Positions 1,465-11,857 of a DNA stretch of 41,483 bases are shown here, one piece after another. Within the stretch, counting starts at the first letter, position 1; each line of letters starts with the position of its first letter. The DNA comes from Acidobacteriota bacterium (GTDB taxonomy: Bacteria > Acidobacteriota > Vicinamibacteria > Vicinamibacterales > Fen-181), in NCBI GenBank assembly GCA_017883185.1, contig JADGOB010000019.1, forward strand, positions 1 to 41,483. The letters run 5' to 3'. Both the position numbers and the translations under genes were made by a program. The notes beneath the pieces were generated by a model. That model did no database searches. It saw only the letters and a program-made list of their open reading frames with translations, and had not been told where the DNA came from.

Positions 1465-2313
1465 ATGGACGACACCCGCGCCGCACCCGTCGAACCGACG
1501 GCATACCAGCGCTTCGACAGGTACAACCGGCTCCTGCACGGCGTCCTGATGTTCAGTTTCCTGGGGCTCGCGTTCACGGGCATGCCGCTGTTGTTCAGCG
1601 ACGCCGCGTGGGCCGTGCGCCTGGCCGGCCTGTTCGGCGGCGGCCGGTCCGCCGGGATTCTCCACCGGACGTTCGCGGTGCTGCTCATCGCCTGCTTCGT
1701 CCTGCACGTCTGGCGGCTGATGCATCGCCTCTACGTCAAGAAAGAACTGGAGGTGCTGTGGGGGCCGGAGTCGATGACGCCGCAACCGCGCGACATCGTG
1801 GAGATGCTCGCGCACATCCGCTGGTTCCTGCGCCTCGGCCCGCAGCCTCGCTTCGATCACTTCACCTACTGGGAGAAGTTCGACTACTGGGCGGTGTTCT
1901 GGGGAATGGGCATCATCGGCGGATCGGGGCTCGTCCTGTGGTTCCCGGAGTTCTTCTCGAAGCTCCTGCCCGGGTCGTGGTTCAACATTGCGCTGCTGGT
2001 ACACGGCGAGGAAGGGCTCCTCGCGGTGGGGTTCATCTTCACGATTCACTTCTTCAACAGCCACCTGCGGCCAGACAAGTTCCCGATGGACCCGGTGATC
2101 TTCACCGGCCGGGTGAGCCATCACGAGTTGATGGAGGAGCGCCCCGCCGAGTACGAGCGGCTGCAGCGCGCCCATCGCCTCGATGAAATCGAGGTGGGGC
2201 CCGCGCCCGGCTGGGTGCCCACGCTGGCGAAGTTCGTCGCGCTCGTCGCGGTGACCTTCGGACTGGTGATGGTGGGGTTGATTGTCTACGCGGTGCTGTT
2301 CGCACGGCTGTAG
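1465..2313 (+). CDS. Membrane cytochrome b subunit (cytochrome b561/hydrogenase-b type)
   Basis: 282 aa with four to five membrane helices (about 26-46, 67-86, 145-165, 183-203 and 255-280). Candidate heme b ligands are H25, H67, H81 and H87, and the HGEEGLLAVGF and TIHFFNSH stretches near 190-210. This matches the b-type cytochromes that pair with multiheme cytochromes, formate dehydrogenases or thiosulfate reductases and exchange electrons with the quinone pool. It lies between two multiheme c genes, which suggests it is the quinone-reactive subunit of the same complex. The exact partner and the direction of electron flow cannot be read from the sequence. Confidence 0.85.
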   Translation: MDDTRAAPVEPTAYQRFDRYNRLLHGVLMFSFLGLAFTGMPLLFSDAAWAVRLAGLFGGGRSAGILHRTFAVLLIACFVLHVWRLMHRLYVKKELEVLWGPESMTPQPRDIVEMLAHIRWFLRLGPQPRFDHFTYWEKFDYWAVFWGMGIIGGSGLVLWFPEFFSKLLPGSWFNIALLVHGEEGLLAVGFIFTIHFFNSHLRPDKFPMDPVIFTGRVSHHELMEERPAEYERLQRAHRLDEIEVGPAPGWVPTLAKFVALVAVTFGLVMVGLIVYAVLFARL

Positions 2314-2378
2314 ATCGTCGCGGCGCGCGGCGGCCGTCCCGGCTCGCCCTTCACGCTGACGCAGGAGACGAGAACGCC

Positions 2379-3749
2379 ATGCCCGGGGAATCGAAGTTCC
2401 GGCACTTCCGCCATCCCGTGACCCTGTTCGGCAGCTGGCTGACGACCGTCAGCGCGCTGCTGTTCCTCGGGGTGTTCTTCGCCGACCTGGTCGGGCTGCC
2501 GACGAACCCCTACATCGGGATCGTGTTCTTCCTGATCCTCCCCGGGTTCTTCGTGTGTGGCCTCGCGCTGATTCCGCTGGGTATCGTCCTCTCCCGACGC
2601 CGCGAGCGCCTGGGCAAGCCACGGCACGAGATCACGTGGCCGATCATCGACCTGAACCGGTCGTACACCCGGAGGATCGCCGGCCTGCTCGTGTTCCTGA
2701 CGTTCGCCAACATCGTCGTCATCTCACTGGCCGCGTTCCGCGGCGTGGCGTACATGGACTCTCCGCAGTTCTGCGGCCAGGTGTGCCACACGGTGATGCA
2801 ACCGGAGTTCACGGCGTACCAGAACGGCCCGCACGCCCGGGTGCACTGCGTCGCCTGCCACATCGGGCCTGGCGCGCCGTGGTTCGTGAAGGCGAAGTTG
2901 TCGGGCACCCGCCAGTTGTTCGCGGTCGCCCTGAAGACCTACCCAGAGCCGATTCCCTCGCCGGTCCAGAACCTGCGTCCCGCGCGTGATACGTGCGAGC
3001 AGTGCCACTGGCCGGAGAAGTTCACCGGCGACAGGGTCAGGGTCGTTCGGGAGTACGCCGAGGACGAGGCCAGCACGGAATCGACAACGACCCTCCAGTT
3101 GCACGTTGGCAGCGGCAGCGAGAGCATGGGAGCCCACGGCATCCACTGGCACATGGCGCCGTCCACGCGCGTCAGCTACATCACCACCGACGAGAAGCGA
3201 CAGACGATCGTCTACGTGGAGGTGGAGGACCGAAACGGTGTTCGAACGTTCCGGGCGGACGGCGTGACCGACGAGCAGTTGAAGAAGGGCGAACGTCGGC
3301 AGATGGACTGCATGGACTGCCACAATCGGCCGAGCCATCGCTTCGACTCGACCCCCGAACGGGCGGTGAACGACGCGATGGGCAACGGTCTGATCGCGAC
3401 GACGCTGCCGTTCGTGCGGCGCGAAGCGGTGGCGGCGCTGAAGGTCAGCTATGCGTCGCAGGATGCGGCGGCCGCCGCGATTGGGACACGGCTCGCCGCG
3501 TTCTACGACCGGCAACTCGGGCCGGGGGCTGCGGCGAGGAAAGCGGAGGTCGCGAAGGCGATTGCAGCCACGCAGGACATTTATCGGCGGAATATCTTTC
3601 CCACCATGAAGGTCACCTGGGGCACGTATCCGAACAATATCGGGCACGTCGATTTCCCCGGGTGCTTCCGTTGCCACGACGACGCCAAGAAGACCAGCGA
3701 TGGCCGTGTGATCAAGCAGGATTGCGAACTCTGTCACAAGATGGGGTAG
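2379..3749 (+). CDS. NapC/NirT-like membrane multiheme cytochrome c, six heme sites
   Basis: 456 aa. Three hydrophobic helices come first (about 15-36, 46-70 and 100-118), then a periplasmic heme domain. The first heme site is C132-GQV-C136-H137, with three residues between the cysteines instead of two. It is followed by canonical CVACH (157-161), CEQCH, CMDCH, CFRCH and CELCH. The layout of site one, with a following M/Q-P-E-F and a conserved His before CVACH, matches the NapC/NrfH fold, whose members oxidise menaquinol and pass electrons to periplasmic cytochromes. AGGAG lies 11 bases before the ATG. The C-terminus ends two residues after the last heme site (CELCHKMG). In this operon it is a second candidate quinol-oxidising unit feeding the decaheme protein downstream. 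Confidence 0.87.
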   Translation: MPGESKFRHFRHPVTLFGSWLTTVSALLFLGVFFADLVGLPTNPYIGIVFFLILPGFFVCGLALIPLGIVLSRRRERLGKPRHEITWPIIDLNRSYTRRIAGLLVFLTFANIVVISLAAFRGVAYMDSPQFCGQVCHTVMQPEFTAYQNGPHARVHCVACHIGPGAPWFVKAKLSGTRQLFAVALKTYPEPIPSPVQNLRPARDTCEQCHWPEKFTGDRVRVVREYAEDEASTESTTTLQLHVGSGSESMGAHGIHWHMAPSTRVSYITTDEKRQTIVYVEVEDRNGVRTFRADGVTDEQLKKGERRQMDCMDCHNRPSHRFDSTPERAVNDAMGNGLIATTLPFVRREAVAALKVSYASQDAAAAAIGTRLAAFYDRQLGPGAAARKAEVAKAIAATQDIYRRNIFPTMKVTWGTYPNNIGHVDFPGCFRCHDDAKKTSDGRVIKQDCELCHKMG

Positions 3750-4210
3750 CGGCCCCCAACCCGTAAGCCCTGTGCCCCGTTTCGGTGTCTGTCAGATTCC
3801 AGACAGCCCCGGTTGCCTCGTGCTTGTCCGATCGTTCACAAGTCGGCTTCCGAGCTTGTGCTACGATTCAGAAGATCCGGAATCTAGGATCAAACCCTTC
3901 AAAATTTTGGAAAAGGCCTTGGGTGGATTTGCCGGAAATCCGGCAGCGAGCGAGAACGGGTGCCGAGGCTTCGTCAGTAGTGTGCAGAAATGCCCCGACC
4001 GCCACGTCGGATTGCGCCATAATTCACAAGGAAGTGTTGCCCTTTTCACCAGTGATTCCGGCGCATCTGTTCGGCATTCACATTGCACCAGCGCGAGCGG
4101 GCATTCGGCCAGTCTCTCTTGGGTCGATGGGCAGGTGTTCTCGACGCCTGCGCCCCCGGGGTACTTTTCTTTCCCCAACAGGTTCGTAGTCACAGCTGAA
4201 GGAGCAAGCC
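3750..4210 (+). promoter_or_regulatory. 461-base leader/promoter region before the decaheme-porin pair
   Basis: No convincing gene: the open frames here lack ribosome sites and family resemblance. Base composition is clearly less GC-rich than the flanks. Visible elements are an extended -10-like TGCTACGAT (3859-3867), GATCC/GGATC arms at 3874-3878 and 3887-3891, a palindrome CAAAATTTTG (3900-3909), and a small hairpin GCCGG-AAAT-CCGGC (3931-3944). The length and structure suggest the downstream pair has its own promoter and a structured 5' leader. Confidence 0.45.
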
Positions 4211-5140
4211 ATGGATTCATTCGTCCAGAACCGCGGTCGGGCGGCGCTCACCGCCTTCGCGGTCGCCTGGCTCGCACTCGGCGGGCTGGCGCTGGCAGGC
4301 CAGGCCGACAAGGCGGCCGGGACGGGGTACGCTGGTGAGAAGACCTGTCTCACCTGCCACGAGGCACAGACCAAGGGGTATCACGGCGGCGTCCACGGCC
4401 GCATGTTCAACCCCAAGACGCCGATCGCCACCAACGGCTGCGAGAGCTGCCACGGTGCGGGCAAGGCGCACGCTGATGCGGGCGGCGACAAGACGAAGAT
4501 CGCCAGCTTCAAGACGATGAAGCCGTCCGAGCAGAGCGCGGCGTGTACGAGCTGCCACAACCGGGGCGCGCACGCCCTGTGGACCGGCAGTCAGCACATG
4601 CAGCGCAACGTGAGCTGCACGAGCTGCCACAGCATCCACGACGCCAAGGGCGAGAAGCAGCTCAAGGCGAAGTCGGAGACGGAGCTGTGCGCGACGTGCC
4701 ACCGGGCGCAGACGAACAAGCAGCTGCGCTTCAACCACATGCCGGTTCGCGAGGGCAAGCTGCAGTGCGGGTCGTGCCACAACGTGCACGGCAGCGCGAA
4801 CGTCAAGCTGCTGGCCAAGGGCGTGACGGTGAACGAGAGCTGCACGAGCTGCCACACCGAGAAGCGTGGCCCGATGCTGTGGGAACACCCGCCGGTGGCC
4901 GAGAACTGCACGACCTGCCACGACGCCCACGGCACGAACAACGACCGGATGCTGGTCGCCAAGCTGCCGTTCCTCTGCCAGCGCTGCCACGTGACCTCGC
5001 GGCACCCCCCCACTATCTACGAGGGGTTCACGGAGAAGAACTCGACGAACGCCAACAAGATCTTCGGGCGGAGCTGCATGTCGTGCCACCAGATGGTCCA
5101 CGGGTCGAACGCGCCTTCGGGCAAGGCGTTCCTGCGTTAG
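4211..5140 (+). CDS. Periplasmic decaheme cytochrome c, MtrA/PioA/DmsE type
   Basis: 309 aa with ten CXXCH sites (CLTCH, CESCH, CTSCH twice, CATCH, CGSCH, CTSCH, CTTCH, CQRCH, CMSCH) spread evenly, the number and spacing of the MtrA/DmsE family. The N-terminus is a signal peptide (hydrophobic FAVAWLALGGLALAG, cleavage around residue 30). AAGGAG at 4199-4204 sits 6 bases before the ATG. In the known Mtr, Mto and Pio systems this protein threads a beta-barrel in the outer membrane as a heme wire; here the barrel gene follows after 15 bases. No outer-surface cytochrome (MtrC/OmcA) lies beside it, so the pair resembles PioAB/MtoAB or DmsEF without the terminal reductase. Direction of electron flow is unknown. 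Confidence 0.9.
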   Translation: MDSFVQNRGRAALTAFAVAWLALGGLALAGQADKAAGTGYAGEKTCLTCHEAQTKGYHGGVHGRMFNPKTPIATNGCESCHGAGKAHADAGGDKTKIASFKTMKPSEQSAACTSCHNRGAHALWTGSQHMQRNVSCTSCHSIHDAKGEKQLKAKSETELCATCHRAQTNKQLRFNHMPVREGKLQCGSCHNVHGSANVKLLAKGVTVNESCTSCHTEKRGPMLWEHPPVAENCTTCHDAHGTNNDRMLVAKLPFLCQRCHVTSRHPPTIYEGFTEKNSTNANKIFGRSCMSCHQMVHGSNAPSGKAFLR

Positions 5141-5155
5141 GTGAGGAGGATAGCG

Positions 5156-7534
5156 ATGCGCAACAGATTGATGATTGTGACTGCCGCGCTTGTGCTGGCC
5201 TCCGTGAGTCTAGTGCTGGCGCAGGACAAGCCCGCGGAGAAGCCCCCAGAGGCGTCCTCGCTGGGTTCTGTCTCGATCGGCTTCCAGGGAAGCTCGGTAA
5301 CCGGCGACCAAGCCCGGTTCGAGCGCTACCGCGACCTTCGCAACCGTCAGAACATCCAGTTCGACTTCGCGAAGGACACCGACAAGTACTTCTTCGACGT
5401 CACGGCCACCAACGTCGGTAACCGTGACGGCTCCTACGCCGTCGGGTACGCCAACAAGAAGGTGAAGTTCGAGTTCTCGTTCGACTCGACGCCGCTCAAC
5501 TACGGCTACAACACCTCCACGCCTTACTCGGTCGCGACGACGGGTACCGATCCGGTGCTGTCTCTCAACTCGGCGACGAGGGCGGACATCGAGGCCAAGA
5601 AGGCGGGCGTGATCGGGATCCCGTCGAGCCTCGCGCAGTGGACCGGCGGCCGGTCGGTGTGGGCGGGTCTCGCCCCGCCGTTCGACCTCCAGACTCGGCG
5701 CGATACCATTCACTTCGGCCTGAGCTACGCGATCACCGACGCCATCGACGCGAAGTTCGAGGTCGCCAGCCACAAGCGCAACGGCTACCAGCCGTTCGGT
5801 GCCGGGTTCGCGTTCAACAACGCGACGGAGATCCCGCTCCCGATCGACGACCGATCGACGGAGATCGAGGCGGGCATCGACTGGGCGAACGACAAGGCGA
5901 TGTTCCGCCTGGCGTACGAGCGGTCGATGTACAACAACACCTACACCTCGGTGACCTGGGACAGCCCGATCCGCGCGACCGATTACAGCAGCGCGGCGGT
6001 GACCGGCTGGGATGCGAGCGGTTACAGCAACGGCAACGGCCCGGCCCGCGGCCGGTTCGCGACCTCGCCCGACAACTCGATGAACGTGGTGACGGCCACG
6101 GGGCTGTGGAAGTTCGCGCACGCCACCTCGCTCAGCGGCAATCTCGCGCTGATCAACATGTCGAACGACGCGGCGTTGATCCCGTGGACGATCAACCCGG
6201 TGGTGGCCAACTCGAAGCTGTGCTCGGCCGCCAGCGGCATCATCGCGTGCACCCCGACGACGCTGCCGGCGAGCGCGAACACCGAGGTCAAGGGCGTCAA
6301 CGCCTCGTTCGTGTTCAACACCCGGCCGATGCCGAAGATGAACGTGACGGCGCGGTATCGCTACAACAACCACGACAACCAGTCGCCCATCTTCGACTAC
6401 AGCTACAACGTGCGGTTCGACGCGGTTCCGGAGTCGACGCCGGGCGTATCCACCGAGCCGTACACGATCACGCAGAACAAGTTCGACATCGATGCCTCGT
6501 TCGCGGTGCTGCCGTACTCGAGCATCAAGGTCGGCTACGGCATTGACGCCAACAGCAAGACCTACCTGGTCTACCGCAAGCTGACGGACAACACCCTGCG
6601 CGCGTCGTTCGACACGATGGGGAACCAGTGGGTGACCCTGCGCGCGATGTACGAATACACGAAGCGCTCGGGCAGCGAGTTCCACCAGGAAGCCATCACC
6701 GACGCCGGCGGGCAGGCGAACGCGCGGCTGTTCGACGACGCGGAGCGGACGCGCAACCGGGCGACGCTGCTCGCGACCATCACCCCGACGCCGGCCGTGG
6801 ACTTCACCGTGTCCTACGCGCGCGGCAAGGACGACTACGACATCGGGCTGAACCCGCAGTTCGGCCTGCTCAACAACGACAACAACGCCGTCAACGTCGC
6901 GGTCAACGTGAGCCCGAAGCCGCAGATCGCTTTCGGCATGGACTACGGCCGCGAGAAGTTCAACTCGCTCCAGGCGTCGCGGACGGCGAACCCGTTCTCG
7001 GGCGTGGCGGGTGCCTACGAGAGCTGGAATGACGCGAACCGGGACTGGAACCTGACGAACGACGAGACAGTGAACACGTTCACGCTCTACTTCAACCTGC
7101 TCCAGGCGCTGCCCAAGACGGACATCCGGATCGGCTACGATTATTCAGATTCAGACCAGGGCTTCGTGCACGGCGGGCCGCGCGTCCAGGGGATGCAGAC
7201 CAATTCAATCCTGACGGTGGGCGACACCAAGCCGTGCAGCCCGACGACCCTAACGTCGTGCTTCGAGGCGTTCCCGAACGTGACCAACAAGTGGCAGCGG
7301 CTGACCTTCGACCTCCGCTACAACCTGACGCGGCAGATCGGGATCGGCGCCAGTTACTGGTACGAGAAGTTCGACGTGACGGACTACGCGACGATCGACA
7401 CGAACGGCCCGGTGGGCTTCTACCCAGCCACCGGCCAGCCGCGGATCGACTACCTCGGTGAGATCAGCACCGGCTACGGCAACCGGCCGTACACCGGCAG
7501 CACCGGGATCGTCCGCGTGATCTACATGTTCTAG
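5156..7534 (+). CDS. MtrB/PioB-family outer-membrane beta-barrel
   Basis: 792 aa. The ATG at 5156 is preceded by GAGGAGGA, which rules out the GTG at 5141 lying inside that site. A signal peptide (hydrophobic stretch MIVTAALVLASVSLVLA, cut before QDK) is followed by long runs of alternating polar/aromatic strands rich in Y, N and D, and the chain ends in Ile-Tyr-Met-Phe, a typical terminal strand of outer-membrane barrels. Length lies between MtrB (about 700) and PioB (about 800). It should form the sheath around the decaheme cytochrome encoded just upstream. The N-terminal CXXC found in Shewanella MtrB is absent; the only Cys pairs lie mid-chain and late (LCSAASGIIAC, PCSPTTLTSC) and could be loop disulfides. 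Confidence 0.85.
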   Translation: MRNRLMIVTAALVLASVSLVLAQDKPAEKPPEASSLGSVSIGFQGSSVTGDQARFERYRDLRNRQNIQFDFAKDTDKYFFDVTATNVGNRDGSYAVGYANKKVKFEFSFDSTPLNYGYNTSTPYSVATTGTDPVLSLNSATRADIEAKKAGVIGIPSSLAQWTGGRSVWAGLAPPFDLQTRRDTIHFGLSYAITDAIDAKFEVASHKRNGYQPFGAGFAFNNATEIPLPIDDRSTEIEAGIDWANDKAMFRLAYERSMYNNTYTSVTWDSPIRATDYSSAAVTGWDASGYSNGNGPARGRFATSPDNSMNVVTATGLWKFAHATSLSGNLALINMSNDAALIPWTINPVVANSKLCSAASGIIACTPTTLPASANTEVKGVNASFVFNTRPMPKMNVTARYRYNNHDNQSPIFDYSYNVRFDAVPESTPGVSTEPYTITQNKFDIDASFAVLPYSSIKVGYGIDANSKTYLVYRKLTDNTLRASFDTMGNQWVTLRAMYEYTKRSGSEFHQEAITDAGGQANARLFDDAERTRNRATLLATITPTPAVDFTVSYARGKDDYDIGLNPQFGLLNNDNNAVNVAVNVSPKPQIAFGMDYGREKFNSLQASRTANPFSGVAGAYESWNDANRDWNLTNDETVNTFTLYFNLLQALPKTDIRIGYDYSDSDQGFVHGGPRVQGMQTNSILTVGDTKPCSPTTLTSCFEAFPNVTNKWQRLTFDLRYNLTRQIGIGASYWYEKFDVTDYATIDTNGPVGFYPATGQPRIDYLGEISTGYGNRPYTGSTGIVRVIYMF

Positions 7535-7740: not shown

Positions 7741-7798
7741 AATGAGACGCATTCGCAAAGTCGTCCAAACACCTGGTTTCCCACGATCTTCCATCACC

Positions 7799-9586
7799 AT
7801 GTCCTGTCATATCGCCGCTGAACGCGCCGCCGCCCCACCCGTCCTGCGGCTCCGGGCTCGCCCGCTCAAGGTCGTCCTCGTCGGCAACCCGAACGTCGGC
7901 AAGAGCGTCATCTTCGGCCGCCTGACCGGCCGCTACGCCACCGTCTCCAACTACCCGGGCACCACGGTCGGGATCACCACCGGCCGCGCGATGGTCGGGG
8001 CCGAGGTGTGCGACGTCATCGACAGCCCCGGCGTCAACGCGCTCGAGGGCGTGCTGAGCGAAGACGAGCACGTTACCCGCCGCCTTCTGGCCAACCGCGA
8101 GGCGGACCTGGTGATCCAGGTGGCCGACGCCCGCAACCTGCGCCGCGCCCTGATGCTGACCGCCCAGGCGGCCGCCTTCAGCCTCCCGATGGTCCTTGTC
8201 CTGAACATGGTGGACGAAGCGCGCCGCCGCGGCGTCGAGGTGGACGCGGCCCGACTGTCTTCCGAGCTTGGCATCCCGGTCGTGGAGACGGTGGCAATCG
8301 AGGGGCAGGGACTGAACGAGCTGAAGGAGGCCCTCCCGGCCGCAGCCCCCGCGCGCATCCCGTTCGTGCCGAATGGCGACTACTCGGCCTGGGCGCACGA
8401 GACCGCGTCGCGCTTGCGTCGGTCGCGGCCGTCGTCGATTGGTCGCCTCCAGGAGTTCCTCGGCAGGGCGGTCCGCCAGCCGGCCACCGGCCTCCCCATC
8501 CTTGCCGTCGTCCTCTACGTCATCTACCTGTTCGTCGGCGTGTTCGGCGCGCAGACGCTTGTCAGGCTGATCGAGCACGGCGTGTTCCAGGCATACATCA
8601 ACCCGGCAGCGACGGCGCTTGCAGACCGATTCATCCCGTTCGCGGCCGTGCGTGACTTCCTCGTCGGCCCTTATGGCCTGATCACCATGGGCCTGACCTA
8701 CGCGATGGCCATCGTGCTGCCGGTGGTCGCCACCTTCTTCCTGATCTTCGGGTGGCTCGAGGATAGCGGCTACATCCCGCGTCTCGCGATCTTCTCCGAC
8801 CGGATCTTCCGGATGATGGGGCTGAACGGCAAAGCGGTGCTGCCGATGGTGCTCGGCCTTGGCTGCGATACGATGGCGACGATGACGACGCGAATCCTCG
8901 GGACTCCGAAGGAACGCCTCATCGCCGTGCTGCTGCTGGCGCTCGGCATCCCGTGCTCGGCCCAACTGGCTACCATCCTCGGCATCCTCGGCGGCATCTC
9001 GTTCGCGGCCCTCCTGACATTGTTCGGCGTGGTCGTCCTTCAGATCTTCTTCGTGGGGTTCCTGGCCGCGCAGTTGCTGCCTGGCGAGCGTTCCGACTTC
9101 ATCATGGAACTGCCGCCGCTCCGCCTCCCGGGGATGCGGAACCTGATGCACAAGACGCTGTTGAGGATCCGCTGGTACCTGTGGGAGGCCGTGCCGCTCT
9201 TCTTGATTGGAACGGCGCTACTCTTTGTCTTGGACAAGACGGGGCTGCTGAGGTGGGTGGTGGCCGGCGGTCGCCCGGTCGTTACCGGACTCCTGGGGTT
9301 GCCAGCCGAGACGGCGCAGGTGTTCGTGATGGGCTTCCTGCGGCGCGACTATGGCGCCGCAGGCCTGTTCCAGCTGTCGCATGCCGGCCAGTTGAGCGCG
9401 ACCCAGGCAGTGGTGGCGCTGACGGTCATGACATTGTTCGTGCCGTGCGTGGCCAACTTCCTGATGATCATCAGGGAGCAGGGGCTGAAGGCGGCCCTCG
9501 CCATCCTGGTGTTCGTGACGACCGTGGCGTTGTCCACGGGAGCGGGCCTTCACTATGCTTTCCGGATCCTCGGTGTCGACTTTTGA
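7799..9586 (+). CDS. feoB: Ferrous iron transporter FeoB
   Basis: An inner-membrane Fe(II) permease with an N-terminal G protein. G1 is GNPNVGKS (29-36), G2 YPGTT near 53, G3 DSPG near 75 and G4 NMVD near 136. The membrane part carries the Gate and FeoB C-terminal signatures, including GLGCDTMATMTTR and GIPCSAQ, whose Cys residues are thought to line the iron path. At 595 aa from 7799 it is shorter than the 700-770 aa of the enterobacterial protein. The ATG at 7799 is preferred because upstream alternatives lie at or before the -10 element; an ATG at 7742 is a second option, and neither has a strong ribosome site. feoA overlaps its 3' end. Iron uptake beside a heme-rich electron-transfer cluster fits a high demand for iron. 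Confidence 0.93.
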   Translation: MSCHIAAERAAAPPVLRLRARPLKVVLVGNPNVGKSVIFGRLTGRYATVSNYPGTTVGITTGRAMVGAEVCDVIDSPGVNALEGVLSEDEHVTRRLLANREADLVIQVADARNLRRALMLTAQAAAFSLPMVLVLNMVDEARRRGVEVDAARLSSELGIPVVETVAIEGQGLNELKEALPAAAPARIPFVPNGDYSAWAHETASRLRRSRPSSIGRLQEFLGRAVRQPATGLPILAVVLYVIYLFVGVFGAQTLVRLIEHGVFQAYINPAATALADRFIPFAAVRDFLVGPYGLITMGLTYAMAIVLPVVATFFLIFGWLEDSGYIPRLAIFSDRIFRMMGLNGKAVLPMVLGLGCDTMATMTTRILGTPKERLIAVLLLALGIPCSAQLATILGILGGISFAALLTLFGVVVLQIFFVGFLAAQLLPGERSDFIMELPPLRLPGMRNLMHKTLLRIRWYLWEAVPLFLIGTALLFVLDKTGLLRWVVAGGRPVVTGLLGLPAETAQVFVMGFLRRDYGAAGLFQLSHAGQLSATQAVVALTVMTLFVPCVANFLMIIREQGLKAALAILVFVTTVALSTGAGLHYAFRILGVDF

Positions 9587-9815
9587 GCACGGGCGGCGCC
9601 TGGTGTCGCTCGGGGTGGGCGAGCGTGGCGTGGTGGTCCGGGTGCTCCGCGATAACCCGGCACGCGCCGAACGGTTGAAGGCGCTGGGCGTGACGCCAGG
9701 GGCGCGGGTCCGGCTGCTGCAGCGGTTTCCAGGGTTCGTGTTCGAGTGCGATCAGACGGAACTGGCCGTCGAGCCATCGGTCGCACGCGCCATCCTGATC
9801 GAGGAGCTCGGGTAG
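9555..9815 (+). CDS. feoA: FeoA-domain ferrous iron transport protein
   Basis: 86 aa, small cytosolic SH3-like protein. The conserved run L-G-V-T-P-G-A-R-V-R followed by GF-VFECDQTELAVEPSVARAI matches FeoA, which binds and tunes FeoB. The start codon lies inside feoB, so the two overlap by 32 bases and are probably translationally coupled; a later GTG start is possible because the first dozen residues are not conserved. The order feoB-feoA is the reverse of E. coli. Confidence 0.9.
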   Translation: MLSGSSVSTFEHGRRLVSLGVGERGVVVRVLRDNPARAERLKALGVTPGARVRLLQRFPGFVFECDQTELAVEPSVARAILIEELG

Positions 9816-9830
9816 CGGAGGACCGTTCCG

Positions 9831-10985
9831 ATGACGATGCCAACGACGGTGCCGCCGCTTCGCTTGATGTTTTGGGAAACGACCAAGGCGTGCAATCTGC
9901 GGTGTCAGCACTGTCGTGCGGTGCCTGAGGCCGAGCGTTCCGCCGTTGAGTTGACCACCGAAGAGTCGTTCGGGCTGATCGATCAGATCGCCGAAGTCGC
10001 AAAGCCCGTGCTGATCCTGTCCGGGGGCGAGCCGCTCTATCGGCAGGACATCTTCGAGATCGGCGCCTACGGGCGCGGCAAGGGCTTCAGGATGGCCCTC
10101 GCGACCAACGGCACGATGATCGACCGTCCCCTCGCCGAGCGGGTCCGGACCACCGGCTTCTCCCGCGTGGCCATCAGCCTCGACGGGGCGGTGCCGGCGA
10201 CGCACGACACGTTCCGCGGCATGCCAGGTTCGCACGCGAAAGCGATCGACGGCCTGCGCTTCCTCCGCGACGCAGGCGTGTCGATCCAGGTCAACTCGAC
10301 GATCGCGAAGCACAACGTGTCCGAGTTGCCCGCGCTACTCGACCTGGCGCTGTCGCTCGGCGCCGACGCCCTGCACCTCTTCATGCTGGTGCCGGTGGGG
10401 TGTGGCGTGAGCATCGCCGCCCGCGAGATGCTGCCGGCCGACGAGTACGAGCGCGTGCTGCACTGGTTCTACGATCAGTCGAAGACGGTGACCATCGACC
10501 TGAAGGCGACGTGCGCGCCGCACTACTTCCGGGTCCGCGCACAGCGGATCGTCGAGGAGCGCAAGCACGGCGACCGGAGCACGCCCTTCGTCGCGATCGG
10601 AACGCAGTTGAAGGCCGCGCCGGACCCGGCCGGCGGCCGGCCGCTCTCGGCCATGACCCGGGGATGCCTCGCGGGCACGGCGGTGTGCTTCGTGTCGAAC
10701 GCCGGAGACATCTACCCGTGCGGCTACCTGCCGGTCAGCGCCGGGAATATCCGCCAGCAACGGTTCGGTGACATCTGGGCGCAGTCAACCGTGTTCCAGC
10801 AGCTGCGTGATCCTTCCACGCTGAGCGGGAAGTGCGGGATCTGCAAGTACGAGGGAATCTGCGGGGGGTGCCGGGCGCGCGCCTTTTCAGACAACGGCGA
10901 CTACCTGGCCGAAGAACCGTTCTGCACGTACGAGCCGGTCCTCGACAATGCGGTGGCGCTGCAGGTGGTTCAGGGGCAGGGATAG
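9831..10985 (+). CDS. Radical SAM/SPASM protein, AhbD (heme b synthase)-like
   Basis: 384 aa. The radical SAM cluster motif is C21-x3-C25-x2-C28, followed by a SAM-binding GGEP. The C-terminal SPASM-like region has RGCLAG, YPCGY, CGICKYEGICGGCRARA and EPFCTYEP. The segment LKATCAPHYFRVRAQ and the CGGCRARA ending resemble AhbD, which makes heme b from Fe-coproporphyrin III in the siroheme-dependent route, and its relative NirJ (heme d1). The similar TIGR04053 family lacks some of these Cys residues (it has GSRARA), which favours AhbD-like. GGAGGA at 9817-9822 supports the ATG at 9831. Adjacency to feoBA and heme-rich genes fits a heme role, but AhbA-C are not in this window, so function is inferred from family. 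Confidence 0.7.
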   Translation: MTMPTTVPPLRLMFWETTKACNLRCQHCRAVPEAERSAVELTTEESFGLIDQIAEVAKPVLILSGGEPLYRQDIFEIGAYGRGKGFRMALATNGTMIDRPLAERVRTTGFSRVAISLDGAVPATHDTFRGMPGSHAKAIDGLRFLRDAGVSIQVNSTIAKHNVSELPALLDLALSLGADALHLFMLVPVGCGVSIAAREMLPADEYERVLHWFYDQSKTVTIDLKATCAPHYFRVRAQRIVEERKHGDRSTPFVAIGTQLKAAPDPAGGRPLSAMTRGCLAGTAVCFVSNAGDIYPCGYLPVSAGNIRQQRFGDIWAQSTVFQQLRDPSTLSGKCGICKYEGICGGCRARAFSDNGDYLAEEPFCTYEPVLDNAVALQVVQGQG

Positions 10986-10990
10986 GGAAG

Positions 10991-11119
10991 TTGCCAGTGG
11001 TCAGTATGACACGGGTATCAGACTGGCAACTGGCCACTGACAACCGACAACTACTGTCTGCCGTCAACCGGCAGCTGTGAGCTTCCGGCTGGCTGCTGTC
11101 CGCTGCCGGTTGTGGGCTG
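10991..11119. repeat. Degenerate heptad (7-base periodic) repeat array
   Basis: From 11022 to 11119 the sequence reads as fourteen consecutive 7-base units in one phase, starting ACTGGCA, ACTGGCC and drifting to xxxxCTG units such as CCGGCTG and TCCGCTG. A short inverted copy (TTGCCAG TGGTCAG) at 10991-11004 faces it and can pair with 11023-11030. No gene is supported here. Confidence 0.7.
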
Positions 11120-11164
11120 CTTCGTCTTCGTGCGTCGATCCTCGACGCTGCAGGAGTTGCTCAT

Positions 11165-11251
11165 TCACGTCGGGACGCCGAGGCGTGGCAGGAGCCACGC
11201 CTGCAGGAAGACCCAGACTGCCAGAAATACGAGTGGCCAGAGGTAATCCAT
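11165..11251 (-). CDS. 28-residue predicted membrane microprotein, coupled to DUF302
   Basis: The stop of the DUF302 gene and this start overlap as TAATG (11253-11249), a classic translational coupling. The 28 codons encode MDYLWPLVFLAVWVFL, then QAWLLPRLGVPT: a single hydrophobic helix rich in Trp, Leu and Val with a charged C-terminal tail. Such a small protein would insert in the inner membrane. No function is assigned. Random in-frame occurrence with this overlap and hydrophobic content is possible but looks unlikely. Confidence 0.55.
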   Translation of the reverse strand: MDYLWPLVFLAVWVFLQAWLLPRLGVPT

Positions 11252-11667
11252 TACACGCCTGCCTTGGCGGCTTCGAGCGTCGTGAGCACTCGGCGCAACT
11301 TGGCGTCCACTTCCTGCCCCATCGGCGCCAGCGCCTCGTTCCCAACGCGCCCCATGGTCACCAGCGGCGCCACCGCCGCGACCACACTGTGACCCGGTTC
11401 GGTCTCGTACACAATCACGTTGCATGGCAGCAGCAGGCCGATTTCGGTTTCCGCGCTCAATGCCTGGTAGGCGAGCGGCGGGTTGCAGGCGCCCAGGATC
11501 ACGTACTTCCGGAAGTGCTTGTCGAGCTTCTGCTTGATGGTCTGCTTGACGTCGATGGTCGTCAGGACGCCAAACCCCTCGGCCTTCAGGGCCGCGGTCG
11601 CCTTGTCGATCGCCTCTTCGTAGCTGATCGGCAACACGACCCGCATGCCGTAGCGTGTCTCTTCCAC
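11251..11667 (-). CDS. DUF302 domain protein
   Basis: 138 aa. The central section (FRKYVILGACNPPLAYQALSAE, then IGLLLPCNVIVYE) is the DUF302 signature, an alpha/beta fold of unknown biochemical role with two conserved Cys. GTG start, with GAGGAG 6-9 bases upstream on this strand. No signal peptide, so cytosolic. DUF302 proteins are widespread in sulfur- and metal-rich habitats and are often near redox genes; no mechanism is established. A tiny membrane ORF is coupled to its 3' end. Confidence 0.85.
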   Translation of the reverse strand: MEETRYGMRVVLPISYEEAIDKATAALKAEGFGVLTTIDVKQTIKQKLDKHFRKYVILGACNPPLAYQALSAETEIGLLLPCNVIVYETEPGHSVVAAVAPLVTMGRVGNEALAPMGQEVDAKLRRVLTTLEAAKAGV

Positions 11668-11857
11668 GTTGTTCTCCTCGATTACCAGTCTAGAAGCTCG
11701 GGTTCACGTACATGGGGTGTTTTCCGGAGTCTGACTCAAGGATTCAGGTTCTGCCGATTTGGTTTCACCCTCGGGACCCAACAGTATCGTCCACTCTCTG
11801 CTTGCCTTGCTGTATGATTCACGTCTGCCGGAAAGCGTCACGCAGGGACCCGTAGCT

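Follow-up and report, generated by a model that had tools for sequence, protein, structure and literature searches.

An open reading frame of 28 codons starts inside the stop codon of a DUF302 gene in the window (the whole 41,483-nucleotide stretch of Acidobacteriota DNA analyzed here), and raises the question of what it encodes: a complete 28-residue membrane microprotein, as the original prediction had it, or the first part of a longer protein that runs through the TGA. Comparison of homologues from two bacterial phyla points strongly to the longer protein. The small gene very probably encodes a single-pass membrane selenoprotein, in which UGA would be read as selenocysteine (Sec) via a downstream hairpin, followed by a tail with a UxxxxC motif; insertion of Sec and synthesis of the protein are themselves predicted from sequence patterns.

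The DUF302 domain has, to our knowledge, no assigned activity. The window DUF302 protein carries the two cysteines typical of its group, in the motifs ACNP and LPCN, and both are common to its nearest solved structures, 1j3m (TT1751) and 1q9u. The last A of its TAA stop is the first base of the small-gene ATG, and this ATG opens 28 codons, MDYLWPLVFLAVWVFLQAWLLPRLGVPT, followed by TGA (Table 1). The profile match to the small gene of the window spans this 1 internal TGA. The last third of the extended protein (QQPAGSSQLPVDGRQ; 11051-11125, minus strand) corresponds to repeat-like intergenic DNA common to G001. Because the frame reads into such DNA, its C-terminal end, which varies, may carry no function.

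Table 1. Coordinates of the DUF302 gene, the small gene and its elements in the window, and of Sec genes elsewhere in the same genome (G000)
Feature	Position	Strand	Basis or detail
DUF302 protein, 138 aa	11251..11667	minus	Pfam PF03625, 83.1 bits, E=1.2e-23
TAATG, overlap of DUF302 stop and small-gene start	11249..11253	minus	sequence
Small gene read through TGA	11051..11251	minus	66 residues (28 + Sec + 37), coding 11054-11251, then TAG
Predicted single hydrophobic helix, about residues 4-22	11186..11242	minus	Kyte-Doolittle hydropathy
TGA, putative selenocysteine, residue 29	11165..11167	minus	TGA/Cys exchange; Cys forms only in SelB-negative genomes
Cys of UxxxxC motif, residue 34	11150..11152	minus	motif conservation in homologues
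SECIS-like hairpin GCGTCGA-GGA-TCGACGC	11132..11148	minus	fold of 45 nt after TGA, -12.6 kcal/mol
SelB (G000)	contig C33		
SelA (G000)	C110:3379-4488		
tRNA-Sec, anticodon TCA (G000)	C110:64479		

That an unannotated but true small membrane gene is coupled to DUF302 is borne out by relatives, in which the same frame lies behind DUF302 with near-identical ends, and the frame is kept in close relatives. At the junction with DUF302, stop and start overlap as TAATG or TGATG, or only a few bases separate them. The frame ends in LP[RK][LM]GV[PQS]T (in a broader first reading, ..LP[RK][LMF]GV.T), with many synonymous changes. Over the last 20 codons of 54 related pairs, 198, 76 and 404 differences fall at codon positions 1, 2 and 3, respectively, and this excess at the third position indicates that the small frame is coding sequence.

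A profile search of 100 relatives gave a clear match (E <= 1e-6) in 19 genomes, including that of the window; G008 was added after inspection of its weak match. With profile A2 at E <= 1e-3, the family was detected in 96 of the 396 genomes of the window's phylum. Three chance matches (G187, G249 and G358), which by eye are not homologues, were removed, leaving 93 genomes, of which G270 alone has a Cys codon, TGT, and the other 92 have TGA. A pattern scan aimed at Cys versions turned up L068, from a planctomycetal MAG in which this site reads C (MYDWSLPVGVLALWIVLNRWVLPRMGVPT-C-MGGSCAV); the pattern used for the contig scan contained Cys and was therefore able to find Cys forms only. A second match from the contig scan, L069, covers only 10 residues and was taken as chance. 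In 392 genomes of this second, planctomycetal phylum, 41 had matches, and the 40 that were read comprise 30 TGA and 10 Cys forms. Left out of the counts were the second matches G097b and G126b and the match in G632 (E=1.8e-4), and G354 was added by hand. G126 carries a second, diverged family copy (L164, 3900-4200), YVLPRLGIDT-TGA-LSRSVCQ, also with TGA. A tblastn search of plasmids with a Cys homologue gave no match. The best 18-residue Kyte-Doolittle mean is at least 1.6 in 134 of the 144 homologues with enough sequence, and the predicted full lengths range from 41 to 89 residues (median 56, n=141).

Among the 145 homologues, the codon after the helix and LPRLGVPT is TGA in 134 and Cys (TGC or TGT) in 11. 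The Cys homologues come from 11 genomes in two phyla, and in them one uninterrupted frame crosses the TGA site. The frame stays open for at least 12 codons past the TGA in 104/104 copies of the first set, versus 90 in one alternative frame and 72 in the other. The sequence of relatives past the TGA reads U-M-S-x-x-C-x-V-E-[SD]-R-R or U-[AG]-V-P-x-P, and the residue before the U/C site is Thr in 141/145. UxxxxC is found in 97/134 TGA forms and CxxxxC in 10/11 Cys forms. The 71 first-set copies with UxxxxC use TGC (56) and TGT (15) for the cysteine, and the Ser at U+2 is encoded by both AGC and TCN codons; the occurrence of both Cys codons and both Ser codon classes suggests that it is the amino acids that are held in the tail. 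Differences at codon positions 1, 2 and 3 in the first six codons past the TGA number 89/65/119 in the 54 pairs and 947/844/923 in 311 looser pairs, a third-position bias that is weak, perhaps due to the hairpin within the frame and the mixing of pairs of different subtypes.

Occurrence of the TGA form follows the Sec machinery. The genome of the window encodes SelB and SelA as well as a tRNA-Sec whose anticodon is TCA. SelB, called by PF09107, was found in 286 of the 396 genomes of the window's phylum. In tests of association that ignore shared ancestry, SelB is present in 87/92 TGA genomes of this phylum versus 199/304 others (Fisher p=2e-9), or 87/96 versus 199/300 with nothing dropped from the 96 matches (p=1e-6); in 27/30 TGA genomes and 0/10 Cys genomes of the second phylum (p=3e-7); and in 114/122 TGA genomes versus 0/11 Cys genomes over both sets (p=2e-11). 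In G270, the Cys genome of the window's phylum, neither SelB nor SelA gave a match, and no tRNA-Sec match was strong. For tRNA-Sec, our own cut by score was used to separate it from tRNA-Ser, with 56 bits and up on one side and 53 and below on the other. Five TGA genomes of the window's phylum are without SelB, and in four of them SelA, a strong match for tRNA-Sec or both were found (both in G150 and G209, tRNA in G217, SelA in G319); in G434, no tRNA-Sec match clears the cut-off, and SelA is matched only weakly, at 24.3 bits, barely past the Pfam cut-off. In the second phylum, G464, G761 and G770 likewise combine TGA with the lack of a SelB match. Incomplete assemblies may explain these genomes.

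The TGA is followed by a candidate SECIS element. In the accessible text of PMC13188914, the published bacterial model places the apical loop 16-37 nt after the UGA, with a G as the first or second base of the loop, and the window hairpin, with 23 nt between the TGA and its GGA loop, fits that model in both position and G. With the published loop position and G, and our own cut of a stem of at least 6 bp, such a hairpin occurs in 84/104 TGA sequences of the first set and 21/30 of the second (105/134), and is absent from the other 20 and 9; dinucleotide shuffles of the 104 first-set sequences give 10.5 on average and 16 at most. When columns are fixed by UxxxxC rather than by pairing, 388 of 497 cells pair, versus 119-237 when slid by 1-3, and G-C, C-G, A-T and G-T pairs occur at several of the positions. 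Folding energy alone hardly separates the forms, given that 131/134 TGA forms and 9/11 Cys forms have an MFE of -7.5 or below. An Rfam scan of the locus returned sub-threshold matches only, with no SECIS family among them. The one Cys form that keeps the hairpin, G456 (GTGCGGT-GTC-ACCGCAC), perhaps retains a relic of a recent change from Sec to Cys.

A mechanism can be proposed in which the ribosome would read the UGA after the hydrophobic helix as Sec, directed by the hairpin just downstream, and translation would go on into a short charged tail with a Cys five residues after the Sec. Net charge averages -0.6 on the N side of the helix and +1.4 on the C side, with the C side more positive in 112/141 homologues and the N side in 12/141. 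By the positive-inside rule, the more positive flank faces the cytoplasm, and the charge bias therefore suggests that the Sec/Cys tail is on the cytoplasmic side. There, the selenol, with the Cys as a resolving or second carrier thiol, may form a redox or sulfur relay at the membrane surface that serves sulfide or persulfide handling, a role to which we give about an even chance. Sulfane sulfur or electrons would pass between the relay and soluble partners: the selenol would pick up sulfane sulfur or reduce persulfides, and the Cys, where present, would resolve. A strict two-thiol mechanism is weakened by the TGA forms without UxxxxC, about a quarter of the total, and by those with no Cys at all after the U (12/104 in the first set). 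The partners might differ by clade: persulfide-dioxygenase (PDO)/rhodanese proteins in some and, in others, among them that of the window, the DUF302 protein with its two cysteines.

Neighboring genes were counted with our own profiles over flanks of 1.5-4 kb, with only 1.5 kb for many loci, and a cluster of neighbors that resembles an antisense frame of DUF302 was kept out. Over such flanks, DUF302 is found near the small gene in 37/105 first-set loci and 1/40 second-set loci, and thus is not a constant partner; in 28/105 first-set loci it lies within 400 nt on the same strand. It is upstream in 18 first-set loci and downstream in 17. The absence of DUF302 near most copies suggests that the small gene also works without it as a direct neighbor. 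Where DUF302 is present, LPC is found in 37/37 and CNP in 28/37 of the neighboring proteins, and our best guess is that DUF302 is a frequent partner of a membrane-anchored Sec/Cys relay.

The sulfide link is drawn from the tightest operons. In six Cys genomes (G755, G845, G806, G637, G694 and G841), TauE, an MBL/rhodanese protein that is persulfide-dioxygenase-like, the small gene and an SQR-like gene follow one another on one strand; the best NCBIfam match of the SQR-like protein is type III SQR, with E=2e-78 but below the model cut-off. Around the Sec form in G763 this order of gene kinds recurs: ArsR, YgaP-like, TauE, PDO, small gene and, after about 1 kb, SQR-like. G320, from the window's phylum, has ArsR, TauE, PDO, rhodanese and the small gene, with an SQR-like gene further on. 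The sulfur-gene context is partial in G320, G821, G198 and G443, and is not seen in most loci or, beyond DUF302, in the window, for which the sulfide link would be carried over from relatives. In the second set, rhodanese (10/40), TauE (9/40) and DUF302 (1/40) were counted as neighbors. At least one listed kind of neighbor, DUF302 included, accompanies 56/105 and 13/40 loci of the two sets, or 26 and 12 without DUF302. A more specific proposal, held tentatively, is that these membrane selenoproteins of 40-90 residues pass sulfane sulfur or electrons from sulfide oxidation at the membrane to rhodanese/persulfide dioxygenase or DUF302. Were this so, DUF302 would be a two-cysteine sulfur or redox carrier with a dedicated Sec partner, the first testable activity for the domain. 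Separately, the Cys forms of G623 and G813 (L223 and L226) lie near a gene pair, one cytochrome bd subunit I-like with a weak c-type haem match and the other without a Pfam match.

The selenoprotein could instead serve in metal, metalloid or general oxidative stress rather than sulfide or persulfide handling, which we consider unlikely. The first-set neighbors include AcrB-type RND pumps (26/105), ArsR-family HTH proteins (22), YgaP-like membrane domains (20), rhodanese (16) and TauE (6), and, named by inspection of sequence, thioredoxin (12/105), UspA-like (9) and Cu-ATPase-like proteins (4). Of these, the pumps, ArsR-family, thioredoxin, UspA-like and Cu-ATPase-like proteins favor such a role. 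Against it, the tightest operons, with both Sec and Cys forms, combine TauE, PDO/rhodanese, the small gene and SQR-like. The ArsR-family neighbors can be read either way: BigR, for one, is an ArsR-family repressor, and we know of no selenoprotein or CxxxxC microprotein described before as a member of a bigR-type operon. In the accessible text of the sources, ArsR-family repressors also control sulfur oxidation (PMC12423496), and BigR controls the sulfur transferase/dioxygenase Blh for H2S oxidation (PMC5823870); as in that operon, ArsR-family HTH, MBL+rhodanese, TauE and SQR-like genes surround the small gene in some genomes. Metal-linked selenoproteins also appear in Table 1 of a 2026 review (PMC13188914), as far as its accessible text goes, which lends the metal or stress role some weight.

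It is very improbable that the gene makes an ordinary microprotein of one helix, terminated at the TGA, that anchors DUF302. The helix and the coupling to DUF302 are real, and termination at UGA under selenium shortage would give exactly the 28-residue peptide, but conservation of the frame extends beyond the TGA, the 11 Cys homologues run through the site, Cys forms are confined to genomes without SelB, and downstream comes a SECIS-like hairpin; the role of an anchor is also at odds with the many copies that have no DUF302 nearby. The predicted length of 28 residues is therefore given up, since, with the TGA behaving like a codon for Sec, the window frame continues to 66 residues.

Two overlapping small genes, the second starting at an ATG right after the TGA (MSNSCSVEDRR...), are harder still to credit. 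In the window, the TGA is directly followed by ATG and a 37-residue frame (ORF 11051..11164), but Met follows the TGA in only 69/134 TGA forms, with Ala, Leu, Gly, Thr, Ser and others elsewhere, and the Cys forms have both halves in one frame. A terminator or attenuator hairpin after a plain TGA stop is just as hard to defend. Hairpins after stops are common (63/375 ordinary TGA stops in the same loci have one by the definition above), but no U run follows the hairpin in the window, the loop sits at a fixed distance from the TGA and starts with G across different stem sequences, and the hairpin is present in just 1/11 Cys forms, where a terminator should stay.

The selenoprotein reading appears to describe a family that has so far gone unlisted. 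In NCBIfam 20.0, the window copy matched 0 families at E <= 10, and 20 members gave 0 matches to selenoprotein models and a single match, to ATP synthase subunit B (E=0.22). In Pfam, the best match of the extended window protein was DMAC1_Dmo2 (E=0.14, below cut-off), and a Cys homologue gave 0 matches. Within Table 1 of the 2026 review (119 families and subfamilies, PMC13188914), none fits by name, motif or domain. In the accessible part of the deep-Sep report, 20 genomes yield nine new families, and its Acidobacteriota test genome yields no new one; of the new families described in that part, none is recognizable as the LPRLGVPTUxxxxC family. In the literature records accessible to a search on selenocysteine and DUF302, nothing was found beyond a single mention of each term in each of two papers. 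Apparently, then, this is a family of small membrane selenoproteins in two bacterial phyla.

The family does resemble the bacterial selenoproteins described in the accessible text of PMC13188914, with an in-frame TGA, a hairpin 16-37 nt downstream, Cys homologues, the Sec machinery and a redox-type motif, although none of those listed there combines a single helix with LPRLGVPTUxxxxC. Among them, TsoB (UxxxxU) has a redox pair with the same four-residue spacing, and the small gene for its part has a sulfur-type neighborhood; by its name in that list, TsoB is rhodanese/DsbD fusion-like, whereas the small protein has 41-89 residues, a single helix and no Pfam domain. The partner gene is a clear member of DUF302 (PF03625; 1j3m, 1q9u), and the small protein is not.

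Eukaryotic SELENOK and SELENOS are also small and cross the membrane once, and their Sec lies on the cytosolic side, near the C-terminus; they have other partners and a eukaryotic SECIS in the 3' UTR. The small protein works like them at most and is not a member of either family.

TGA forms of the family are present in 92 of the 396 genomes sampled from one phylum and in 30 of the 392 sampled from the other, yet no NCBIfam or Pfam model covers them. The selenoproteomes of these groups would thus be undercounted, with the genes called as 28-codon stubs or missed. The Sec/Cys switch tracks SelB closely, and the small gene has neighbors of the same kinds in G763, where it is a Sec form, as in the six Cys genomes; this provides a clean natural experiment on why a cell bears the cost of selenium. 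DUF302, a domain without an activity, would be tied to Sec chemistry, and sulfide or persulfide handling may be the place to look.

Several other features of the window surround the locus. Just upstream of DUF302 (11692-11720, minus strand), nine codons, HPMYVNPSF*, resemble by eye part of a YgaP-like membrane protein. This stretch is possibly a remnant of such a protein, intact versions of which lie near the small gene in relatives. On the opposite strand, just beyond the small gene (7751-10985, plus strand), are genes for FeoB, FeoA and then a radical SAM/SPASM protein. Also on the plus strand (1465-7534), a cytochrome b561-like protein, NapC-type and multiheme cytochromes and then an MtrB/PioB porin (PF11854, E=2.5e-81) are encoded, in what looks like a locus for extracellular electron transfer.
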